Shown in pieces: positions 5,272 to 22,631 of a stretch of 36,372 nt of DNA. Source of the DNA: a virus; IMG/VR virus record IMGVR_UViG_3300021181_000440, positions 1 to 36,372 of that record, one strand, 5' to 3'. The position numbers and the translations under genes are program-made. The notes below the pieces were generated by a model, which was not told the origin of the DNA, made no database searches, and was given only the letters and a program-made list of their open reading frames with translations. Position 1 is the first letter of the stretch, and every line of letters begins with the position of its first letter.

Positions 5272-5777
5272 TAAAGCATTCGGGACTTGAGCCATGCCTC
5301 GACACTGGCGGTGGTGAAGCTGCCCGTGTTGCCCCGGCCTTGCTTCGCTTCGTTGATGATCGAGAAACAACCGGTCGCGCTCAGCGCGCTCACATGCTGG
5401 CGGGTGCAATTCAAGCCGCTCGCCACCTCCGTGCCCGCCAGAGCCTTTGGCTTGCCGGCCAGCTTGTACGGAAAGATCAAACGGAAAATCGGGTCCCAAT
5501 TCTCACGATCCATCTGCCGCACATAATTGGACTCGATCAAAAAGATGAGGCTGCGGATCAGCACCCGGTACTCCGGCCGTTCGCCGTCCGGATTGGTGGC
5601 GATGTTGAAGGCCACCACCAGGCGCAATTGGATCAGTTCCATGATGCGCTCGTTGCTCAAGCCGGATTCGCGCGAGGCCGCGTTCAGATCGCCCAGGGCA
5701 AGCTGCCGCGAACCGCGCATATCCCACGCGAGCTGAATCTCACGCGGCAACAGCGTCTTGATGGAAATAGTGGGCAT
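5271..5777 (-). CDS. possible helix-turn-helix regulatory protein (168 aa)
   Basis: The N-terminal two thirds are helical (REIQLAWDMRGSRQLALGDL, then long Leu/Ile-rich helices with IRSLIFLIE). The C-terminal ~60 residues (KALAGTEVASGLNCTRQHVS, then NTGSFTTASVEAWLKSRML) look like a winged or excisionase-type helix-turn-helix in which a recognition helix is followed by a residue pattern that aligns with MerR/Xis domains. I infer a DNA-binding regulator or excisionase-like early factor. The ATG follows the previous gene by three bases with no SD. Confidence 0.65.
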   Translation of the reverse strand: MPTISIKTLLPREIQLAWDMRGSRQLALGDLNAASRESGLSNERIMELIQLRLVVAFNIATNPDGERPEYRVLIRSLIFLIESNYVRQMDRENWDPIFRLIFPYKLAGKPKALAGTEVASGLNCTRQHVSALSATGCFSIINEAKQGRGNTGSFTTASVEAWLKSRML

Positions 5778-8281: not shown

Positions 8282-8818
8282 ATGAAGACCATCTTCGTCA
8301 TTTGCGTGGCCGCGTTGCTGGCCGGCTGCTCGCAGAAACCTGATCCTCGCATGGCGGAGATCCAAACGCAGCTCGGGCTGCTGCAAGGCAGCATTGACGA
8401 AATGAAAACCCACCTGAACAGCCAGAGCAATTACATGAAGGGAATTTATGCCATCCAGACGAACATGTGCAATGTCATATCCAGCTATTCCAATCTCGAT
8501 GCGGTTGGCCAATACGCCAGTGCTTTGGGCACCAACAATTTTAACGATTTACGGATGGATGTGGCAGAGGTTCGTTTGACGCTCCTCGAAAACCAGTTCT
8601 CCAACCTGTGTCTCACGATCAACGGCAAGGTTGCCGCTCATGCCATTCCCGTTTCATATTCCGGCCCGATGTCCGCTTACAGAAACGGAATCCCGGTTGA
8701 TGTTTATCAACAGATCGTGGCCGATGCCCAGCAAAGGCATCCCGGAGATTATCAGACCCAACAGTACGTCATCGAGGAACAGGTAACGTCTTATAAGTCT
8801 CTTCACAGTTTGCAATGA
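8282..8818 (+). CDS. phage-encoded lipoprotein (178 aa)
   Basis: MKTIFVICVAALLAGCSQKP is a clear lipoprotein signal with lipobox LAGC and lipidated Cys16. The mature part has a helical, coiled-coil-like start (AEIQTQLGLLQGSIDEMKTHL) and a mixed domain. Phage lipoproteins often block superinfection or act as outer spanins. Position between the switch and the lysis-type genes fits either. The last codons overlap a 29-residue membrane ORF as ATGA. No SD before its ATG. Confidence 0.75.
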   Translation: MKTIFVICVAALLAGCSQKPDPRMAEIQTQLGLLQGSIDEMKTHLNSQSNYMKGIYAIQTNMCNVISSYSNLDAVGQYASALGTNNFNDLRMDVAEVRLTLLENQFSNLCLTINGKVAAHAIPVSYSGPMSAYRNGIPVDVYQQIVADAQQRHPGDYQTQQYVIEEQVTSYKSLHSLQ

Positions 8819-8904
8819 ACCCCGAAAAATTCACCTTCGTGGAATGGCTGCTCATCATCGAATGCATCTTCTTCATCGCCTGGGGCGGAATGCATCTGCA
8901 TTGA
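8815..8904 (+). CDS. 29-residue membrane peptide
   Basis: ATG 8815 overlaps the lipoprotein stop as ATGA. The product MNPEKFTFVEWLLIIECIFF, then IAWGGMHLH, has one membrane span. The size and coupling to a lipoprotein resemble small lysis or toxin-like membrane peptides, but nothing proves expression. Confidence 0.45.
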   Translation: MNPEKFTFVEWLLIIECIFFIAWGGMHLH

Positions 8905-9115
8905 GTGGCGAGCCGCCACGGGCAAAAGTCGGAGATTCCGACATTTCAAAAATCCGAAATTCGGAAATTTCAAATTGTGGGAAAACCACATTTTCAAAAT
9001 ACGGAAAATCCGAATTTTGAAATCCGCCATAATGGCGCTTTTGTTCCCACGCATGCGTGGGAAACTCAAAACGGCCAAATTGGCCGTTTTGAAATCGCCC
9101 GTGGCGGCTCGCCAC
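8905..9115. mobile_element. hairpin-array element bounded by a perfect 19-bp inverted repeat
   Basis: The ends GTGGCGAGCCGCCACGGGC (8905-8923) and its exact reverse complement (9097-9115) each also fold as a 6-bp-stem hairpin next to GGGC/GCCC. Between them lie seven palindromes of unrelated sequence: 8928-8942 (GTCGGA/TCCGAC), 8953-8965 (TCCGAA/TTCGGA), 8976-8990 (TGTGG/CCACA), 8992-9022 (TTTCAAAAT...ATTTTGAAA around CGGA/TCCG), 9025-9037 (CGCCAT/ATGGCG), 9044-9063 (20-bp perfect) and 9066-9092 (13-bp arms). Spacers repeatedly contain TTTCAAA or its complement. A REP/BIME- or MITE-like element is the simplest reading; a structured RNA or protein-binding site is possible. Both strands give spurious open frames. 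Confidence 0.8.
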
Positions 9116-9134
9116 ATTTCAAAAATATCTTGCC

Positions 9135-9147
9135 CGGCATCATGCCG
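9135..9147. repeat. additional 13-bp palindrome flanking the hairpin array
   Basis: CGGCAT-C-ATGCCG follows the element after another ATTTCAAAAA spacer (9116-9125), continuing the spacer-hairpin pattern outside the 19-bp inverted repeat. It may be part of the same structured unit. Confidence 0.6.
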
Positions 9148-9170
9148 CTGTGATTAAGTAGCGCGGCCAG

Positions 9171-9210
9171 CGGAGGTTGGTCCCGCCTGCGGGACCGAAC
9201 CTCCGTTTTT
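9171..9210 (+). terminator. strong intrinsic terminator
   Basis: CGGAGGTT (9171-9178) pairs with AACCTCCG (9198-9205), GGTCCCGC (9179-9186) with GCGGGACC (9189-9196), followed directly by TTTTTGTTT. It ends transcripts from the lipoprotein region and places the hairpin array in their 3' untranslated part. There is no T-tract on the other strand. Confidence 0.82.
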
Positions 9211-9328: not shown

Positions 9329-9389
9329 CCTAGGCGAAACCGAGCGGCGGCGGGTCCAACCTCCTTCCCGCCGTCGCTCTCCGCCTGGG
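9329..9389 (+). ncRNA. leader hairpin with ACCTCCTT (anti-SD-like) apical loop
   Basis: Stem 1 pairs CCTAGGCG (9329-9336) with CGCCTGGG (9382-9389, one G-U). After a small internal loop, stem 2 pairs GAGCGGCGGCGGG (9342-9354) with CCCGCCGTCGCTC (9367-9379, one G-U). The 12-base loop contains ACCTCCTT (9359-9366), identical to the 16S rRNA 3' anti-SD core. It lies 32 bp upstream of the next ATG. It may be a leader regulator or a small RNA; no family recognised. The rest of 9211-9328 is AT/GC mixed sequence with a 6-bp-stem hairpin at 9294-9314 and no clear promoter. Confidence 0.6.
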
Positions 9390-10090: not shown

Positions 10091-10211
10091 GCCGGCTGCC
10101 ATTGAAGCAAATCTTTTATAAAAAAACGCGAGCAGATAGAACCCGGTTCCAAGTCATCCAAAGCCAGCGGCACAAAAAGCCTGGACGAAAAACTTGGGCT
10201 GAATTTTTGAA

Positions 10212-10715
10212 ATGAATCCCACCCGCGAACAGATCAATAACTTTCCCGAGTTGTTGCCCGGCGACATCCTGCTCTACGGAGGGAATGATCTGGTGAGCCG
10301 GTTGATCCAGTTCCGCACCTGGTCGGATGTTTCGCACATTGAAATTTACGTTGGAGGGGGTCGCTCGGTCGCCTCGCGCAACGGCATCGGCGTGAATGAA
10401 TACCCGCTGCGGATCGCCGGGCTGCGCCGGGCGTATCGTCCGAAAACCGATTTCTGGCTGGATGCAAACTTCGATAAAGCCATGGCCTGGTTCCAGACCG
10501 TCAAAGGCACGCCGTATGGCTGGGCCGACCTCGCAAGATTCTACCTGATCGACATTCCGACCAGGGGTTTGATCTGTTCGGAGTTTGGCGATCTTTTTTT
10601 TCGCAATGGCGGCTTGCCGCTGTTCAATACGAATTACCCCGAAGGTGCCGTTTGTCCAGGTGATAACGAAAAAGTCTCGTCGCTGCTGCTGGCGCAGATC
10701 TGGAGTTGGAAATGA
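10212..10715 (+). CDS. permuted NlpC/P60 (YiiX-like) cysteine hydrolase (167 aa)
   Basis: PGDILLYGG (residues 16-24) followed by SDVSHIEIYVGGGRSVAS with His42, and ICSEFGDLFF with Cys122. This His-first, Cys-last order and the PGD...SH.E...GG.. pattern are typical of circularly permuted NlpC/P60 (YiiX/LRAT-type) domains. In phages such enzymes cleave peptidoglycan cross-links or act as lysis or tail enzymes. Its position next to small membrane proteins suggests it is the endolysin-position gene. Coupled to the next gene by ATGA. Confidence 0.75.
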   Translation: MNPTREQINNFPELLPGDILLYGGNDLVSRLIQFRTWSDVSHIEIYVGGGRSVASRNGIGVNEYPLRIAGLRRAYRPKTDFWLDANFDKAMAWFQTVKGTPYGWADLARFYLIDIPTRGLICSEFGDLFFRNGGLPLFNTNYPEGAVCPGDNEKVSSLLLAQIWSWK

Positions 10716-22599: not shown

Positions 22600-22631
22600 A
22601 AAATAATTGCCCATGGCGGCTCGCCATATGA
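22596..22631 (+). CDS. candidate 11-residue leader ORF
   Basis: ATG 22596 has AGGAG (22582-22586) nine bases upstream, overlaps the gpG-like stop (ATGA), encodes MKNNCPWRLAI, and ends at a TGA overlapping the next gene's ATG (22628). A hairpin fills its second half. It could couple translation of the downstream tail gene, or be what remains of that gene's original start after a repeat insertion. Confidence 0.4.
   Translation: MKNNCPWRLAI
22613..22627 (+). repeat. related copy of the element-end hairpin, touching a start codon
   Basis: ATGGCG-GCT-CGCCAT is a perfect 6-bp stem. With GCCC before it (22609-22627), it matches the right end of the 8905-9115 element (GCCCGTGGCGGCTCGCCAC) at 17 of 19 bases, the two changes being compensatory at the stem base. 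It ends one base before ATG 22628. Confidence 0.7.

Follow-up and report, generated by a model that had tools for sequence, protein, structure and literature searches.

What is a dense chain of small palindromes doing between two genes of a transposable phage, and how could it have come to be there? The question is posed by a 36.4-kb virus contig (36,372 nucleotides, referred to here as the window) whose genes include those for a transposase, a portal of the Mu type and a terminase of the GpA type. The phage is Mu-like and likely infects Verrucomicrobia, with Verrucomicrobia subdivision 3 as the likely host order. At positions 8905–9147, about ten small palindromes form a chain of ~240 letters on a near-exact 24-nt grid. 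Nowhere else in the window are palindromes nearly as dense, and no second copy of the array was found there. The array is intergenic and starts immediately 3′ of a stop codon, the TGA of a 29-codon hydrophobic ORF read from the sequence (MNPEKFTFVEWLLIIECIFFIAWGGMHLH, 8815–8904, plus strand), which overlaps a lipoprotein ORF (8282–8818). Downstream, an intrinsic-terminator-like stem followed by GTTTTTG is present on the plus strand at 9172–9204; a terminator consensus scan caught only its inner part. The initial annotation placed the array between a membrane ORF and a terminator, which correspond to this hydrophobic ORF and terminator-like stem. One arm of the stem (9172–9187) recurs inverted at 9349–9364, 161 nt downstream and before a porin-like gene, with 94% complementarity over 16 nt, so an alternative pairing in the leader would be possible.

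The interior palindromes are bracketed by a perfect 19-bp inverted repeat. The left end (8905–8923, plus strand) is a hairpin, GTGGCG-AGC-CGCCAC, followed by GGGC, and the right end (9097–9115, minus strand) is its inverted copy, GCCC followed by GTGGCG-GCT-CGCCAC. Units 1 to 5 are GTCGGA..TCCGAC (8928–8942, centre A 8935), TCCGAA-A-TTCGGA (8953–8965, centre A 8959), TGTGG..CCACA (8976–8990, centre A 8983), CGGA..TCCG (9002–9012, centre A 9007) and CGCCAT-A-ATGGCG (9025–9037, centre A 9031). Unit 6 is a 20-bp perfect palindrome (TTCCCACGCATGCGTGGGAA, 9044–9063) lying 1.5 nt off the grid, and unit 7 has 13-bp arms around A 9079 (9066–9092) and runs through the spacers on both sides; both had been described correctly in the initial annotation. 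The spacers on the grid, all read on the plus strand, are TTTCAAA at 8944–8950, 8968–8974 and 8992–8998, and TTTGAAA at 9016–9022 and 9088–9094. The array continues past the right 19-mer, with a further plus-strand TTTCAAA spacer (9117–9123, 5 nt off the 24-nt grid) and a last hairpin, CGGCAT-C-ATGCCG (9135–9147). The 19-bp ends proposed as the array boundary form a perfect inverted repeat but do not delimit the array on the right.

Folded as RNA, the array reaches −125.4 kcal/mol, whereas shuffled versions give −65.5 ± 4.8 (z = −12.6); the 19-bp ends pair with each other and close the whole array. Ten non-overlapping hairpins (arms of at least 5) occupy 57% of the stretch, whereas simulated Markov sequences (n = 1000) averaged 2.5 and never had more than 7, with 0/1000 reaching 10. 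Moreover, 1.1 Mb of shuffled control contained no run of at least four hairpins. The perfect 19-bp repeat, the z-score of the fold and the excess of hairpins over the simulated maximum exclude chance, and they confirm the earlier description of a dense hairpin array within a perfect inverted repeat.

The recurrence of the spacers had been seen before; their exact spacing had been missed. TTTSAAA-like heptamers start at 8920, 8944, 8968, 8992, 9016, 9040, 9064 and 9088, exactly 24 nt apart, some of them degenerate (GGGCAAA, TTTGTTC and ACTCAAA). The 17 nt between spacers have a central A, on the grid, in six of the seven interior units (8935, 8959, 8983, 9007, 9031 and 9079), and the octamers on either side of the centre are complementary to each other. 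The interior pattern can therefore be written as TTT-[C/G]-AAA + N8 + A + N8′, with dyad centres every 12 nt.

Searches for this pattern elsewhere were largely negative. Blastn of the array returned no match in phage collections and one weak 34-nt match in plasmid collections. A comparison with Verrucomicrobiota, proposed in the initial annotation, gave only fragments of at most 46 nt, whether in the order (320 genomes) or in the phylum (115), and those inspected were single hairpins or coding sequence. The spacer-grid pattern was present in 0/320 genomes of the likely host order, none of the host genomes searched contained a multicopy TTTSAAA family, the pattern CCGAAATTCGGANNTTTCAAA was absent from viral contigs, and no Rfam family scored above the gathering threshold for the array. 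The sole hit of a covariance model (R1) run on 313 genomes fell inside a TPR-protein gene and was dismissed as chance, 18 candidates having been scored per genome. A host origin of the array was rejected for the genomes examined, in which 627 kb contained no run of at least four hairpins.

A spacer-grid scan of 2.9 million viral contigs (three spaced spacers) identified 26 loci, with palindromes between the spacers only in L145/L151, two contigs from one sampling series that represent a single phage. By our estimate, assuming equal base frequencies, both gaps would by chance be 17-mers with 6/8 complementary positions at ~2e-5 per locus. Phage L145 reproduces the 24-nt geometry of the window with A at the centre, and its array lies directly at the stop codon of a portal-like gene. 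L145 is unrelated to the window phage, having a different terminase and portal, and terminase and portal searches found no relatives of it. Its arrays occupy two gene junctions of its structural operon; the repeats of the 24-nt array are in frame with the upstream gene. The second array (L145:8172–8268) consists of five palindromes of 14–20 nt directly after the stop of a terminase-like gene, their ACGT-type tips mostly constant and their arms variable.

Across the units, stem sequences differ on both arms while pairing is kept, and spacing, centre base and spacer stay constant. In nine units (six from the window and three from L145), 88.9% of stem cells were paired compared with 45% in shuffles, and 24 cells had changed on both sides compared with 8 in shuffles (0/500). 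All counted stem pairs in these units were Watson–Crick, with zero G–U, and slid registers all scored far lower. Because the units were registered by hand and by eye, and those of the window are neighbours, this test indicates structure without sequence conservation and is not an independent phylogenetic test. The palindromes often continue through the centre, leaving loops of 0–1 nt. Since 24 nt equal eight codons, the array could also be read as coding for an octapeptide repeat: a frame from GTG (8905–9153) is open, five spacers share a codon phase, and the repeats of L145 are likewise in frame. However, the synonymous spacer positions of this frame (TTT, SAA) are invariant while the residue-changing C/G varies, which indicates that nucleic acid, not protein, is constrained. 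Other frames are open too, and a protein needs no DNA palindromes. We give this reading almost no credence and, with the synonymous sites fixed, reject it.

Terminase and portal searches yielded at least ten related Mu-like phages and prophages. No comparable hairpin run was found in L170–L177, L153, L154, L156, L158 or L160, and no array was present at the matching place in L221–L229. L013 carries the lipoprotein gene, the terminator and the porin-like gene in the same order without the array, and L221, the closest by portal (74%), is without it as well. This absence from related phages indicates that the array is a recent or labile addition to the phage. A lone canonical unit, TTTCAAA-TTGGAAAC-A-GTTTCCAA-TTTGA, is present at the matching place in prophage L175, where it lies 7 nt downstream of a small ORF's stop codon. 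Units scoring as high numbered 0 in 627 kb of host DNA; ~1.2 Mb of phage DNA held one of equal score and two lower, and the L175 unit is therefore suggestive only. In L015, a related phage, octamer-like AT repeats (tttgaaatctgaaattcgaaa) and six palindromes lie just before the terminase (780–860 and 1494–1618), and a palindromic insert is seen near 2030–2115 in the terminase region.

These comparisons bear on two functional readings, put forward in the initial annotation as a structured phage RNA and as a synapsis or packaging site, both of which are weakened by the absence of the array from relatives. The first, in full, is a structured 3′ UTR or intergenic phage RNA under selection for its effect on mRNA stability, on processing or on attenuation ahead of the terminator. 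The very stable multibranch fold, the position between stop codon and terminator, the two operon junctions occupied in L145 and the unit of L175 at the matching place are consistent with such an RNA. Yet L013 and L221 carry no array at the matching place, the palindromes run through the loop and reach positions unable to pair in RNA, no G–U pair occurs among the counted stems, and Rfam gave no match at gathering score; we consider this reading rather unlikely. The second is a DNA-architecture site of a transposable phage, such as a row of protein-binding sites with TTTSAAA at 24-bp intervals, or a site for supercoiling/gyrase, packaging or synapsis. The exact 24-bp spacing, the dyads every 12 bp and the Mu-like nature of the phage would suit it. 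However, the array is not conserved in related Mu-like phages and also occurs in L145, with its different terminase and portal, which makes a role of this kind improbable.

The ends behave differently from the interior. Intergenic copies of the 19-mer GTGGCG-AGC-CGCCAC-GGGC occur in Verrucomicrobia, Clostridia, Alphaproteobacteria and one Bacteroidia MAG, and an identical 19-mer is found in phages L007 and L008. Some matches in GC-rich genomes are coding and expected by chance; those in AT-rich genomes and in one MAG with at least nine copies are not. In the window, a third end-like copy, ATGGCG-AGC-CGCCAT-GGGC, lies on the minus strand at 22609–22627, carries a double compensated change and abuts the ATG at 22628. 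The initial annotation had held that the absence of any second copy anywhere would count against it; the ends do recur, dispersed, and the interior does not. No Rfam match covers the 19-mer, a literature search found no mention of its sequence, and no target-site duplication, a mark of MITEs of DDE or IS transposons, was seen beside 8905/9115. The GTGG at both ends is paired within the stem, and so is not the unpaired GTAG/GTRG foot tag of a GTAG-type REP. A RAYT/IS200-type transposase linked to the 19-bp end had been suggested; no RAYT was found in the phage record or in the genomes with several 19-mer copies (G619, G620 and G003). As several 19-mer genomes are without a RAYT match, the ends may be moved by an enzyme other than RAYT.

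The end hairpin also resembles others. A cross-phylum hairpin family, N6-AGC-N6′-GGGC (L026, L027, L038, L097, L192 and L008), varies in both stem arms and keeps the AGC loop and GGGC tail constant. Other stems with this loop and tail are GTGGGG, GCAGGC, GCGGTG, AAAAGG and GTCGTC; most AGC-loop counts come from loci fetched with the 19-mer itself, and only these other stems are independent. Two different AGC/GGGC stems make an inverted pair in phage L008, and copies of the family abut or overlap a TAG stop codon in L020, L027, L038, L051 and L192. In phage L007, which is Mu-like and also carries the 19-mer, three palindromes are spaced 22.5 nt apart (L261:3806–3869).

A RAYT link was found only for similar elements of the host order. 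The sister phage L227 carries two copies of a three-hairpin element (5423–5510 and 10205–10297), with centres exactly 26 nt apart and spacers TTTGGA/TCCAAA. Elements of this type are dispersed in 13/146 host genomes, with six near-full copies in G092. Copies within one genome differ by paired changes (GGGAGA/TCTCCC, GGCAGA/TCTGCC and GGGCGA/TCGCCC), and 19 copies showed 27 double-change cells compared with 5.3 in shuffles (0/500). In G001 (L281:802–1681), three L227-type copies, two of them in tandem, flank a gene for a REP-associated tyrosine transposase (RAYT) that passes the NCBIfam cut-off (NF047646).

RAYT matches were present in 104/136 genomes of the likely host order. Among 90 RAYT loci of the order, arrays of 3–7 hairpins at 20–31-nt spacing are seen on one or both sides of the gene, many of them bounded by GTAG...CTAC, with inverted boundary tags of the GTAG/GTGG type. 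Arrays of at least three hairpins numbered 14 in 259 kb of RAYT loci compared with one in 627 kb of other DNA of the same order, although by a strict count only 9/90 RAYT loci carry one; runs bounded by GTRG/GGAG...CYAC/CTCC stood at 15/99 compared with 0/45. GTAG-bounded arrays of 4–8 hairpins flank RAYT genes at L330:789–981, at L311:1032–1127 and 1849–1944, and in L328, L353 and L310, and the L330 array looks like a tandem extension of a four-hairpin unit. The architecture of the window array (at least three hairpins, 20–30-nt spacing and inverted tags) matches L310, L311, L328, L330 and L353. The window and RAYT-flanking arrays share inverted ends, a fixed grid, unrelated but paired stems and an intergenic position. 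None of the 90 RAYT loci contained a canonical TTTSAAA unit (score above 10 of 14), and hence no sequence kinship was found. We therefore see the support for kinship with the REP/RAYT kind in architecture and in the sister phage L227, not in sequence. Membership is not claimed, because the many copies and the unpaired GTRG tag were looked for and not found.

Our preferred reading, held tentatively and at somewhat less than an even chance, is that the array is a non-coding, non-autonomous multi-palindrome element, a long REPIN- or BIME-like structure mobilised in trans or self-amplified. The BIME/MITE/REP-like interpretation is thus the best supported of those in the initial annotation, with the RAYT link confined to similar host-order arrays and the L227 element rather than the window array. 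An unlikely alternative dispenses with a transposase: in a tandem AT-rich 24-nt repeat, imperfect inverted repeats would be made perfect, again and again, by template switching or by repair that uses a hairpin as template, leaving a self-made, fast-evolving and near-neutral array. Palindromes through the centre with 0–1-nt loops, exclusively Watson–Crick counted pairs, the same grid in the unrelated L145 and the lack of a family in the hosts searched are consistent with it. However, the ends consist of a REP-like hairpin that is also dispersed elsewhere, and a mobile element accounts better for the bracketing by inverted ends and for the resemblance to RAYT-flanking arrays. With similarly low probability, the TTT-S-AAA/N8-A-N8′ array could be a distinct phage-borne DNA class, common to unrelated phages (window and L145) in geometry and not in stem sequence: a self-amplifying perfect-palindrome grid, made by copying or mobilised by a transposase for which only spacing and symmetry matter.

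For the preferred mobile element, we propose a mechanism. The palindromes would fold wherever the DNA is single-stranded, on the lagging strand or while the Mu-like phage transposes replicatively. Acting in trans, a RAYT of the host (an HUH/Y1 transposase) or an undescribed relative would read the fold, spacing and end tag rather than the stem sequence, which would leave the stems free to drift while paired. Hairpin-templated copying of arm onto arm may aid this paired drift. Once transcribed, the array would fold into a multibranched RNA upstream of the terminator, a structure that is probably tolerated without being needed.

On this reading, a REP-like palindromic element can expand from a pair of hairpins to ten while keeping to a fixed grid, and its stems can change provided that both arms do. 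A long-open question thereby becomes testable, namely whether REP stems vary through transposase selection for folding or through hairpin-templated copying, and Verrucomicrobia subdivision 3, with its many RAYT-flanked arrays, offers material for it. Transposable phages carry such elements and could transfer them between hosts.

Among known systems, the REPIN, a REP doublet mobilised by RAYT (Bertels and Rainey 2011, PMC3116915), is similar in its inverted pair of small palindromes making a long hairpin, its common compensatory changes, its intergenic position and, for the analogous host-order elements, RAYT genes nearby. The two inverted end palindromes of the window array do pair into one long hairpin. 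However, a REPIN is two REPs and a short spacer, whereas the window array holds ~8 further unrelated palindromes on a 24-nt grid between its ends. A REPIN also has many copies, whereas the array is single in the window, with no family in 320 genomes; its 19-mer end has the third copy at 22609–22627. It further differs from REPs in having GTGG within the stem. REPs that are perfect palindromes are cleaved by RAYT-type enzymes, which also accept a GTAG-to-GTGG variant, although with lower efficiency (PMC8266576). The repeats flanking RAYT or TIRYT genes, in REPtrons and TIRtrons, are self-complementary, flank RAYT-like genes and are sometimes double palindromes, and O. terrae (Verrucomicrobia) is reported to be rich in GTAG repeats (PMC3733652). 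Compared with these, the 3–7-hairpin RAYT arrays of subdivision 3 and the 10-hairpin phage array are longer, the latter without an adjacent RAYT. The L227 element shares fixed palindrome spacing (26 nt in L227), recurrent spacers, compensated stem changes and intergenic spread with the window array; it differs in being multicopy in hosts and RAYT-linked in G001, and is unrelated in sequence. Finally, BIMEs, the mosaics of REPs in E. coli, similarly cluster several palindromes in a 3′ or intergenic region, but they repeat the same few REP types, whereas nearly every stem of the window array is distinct.
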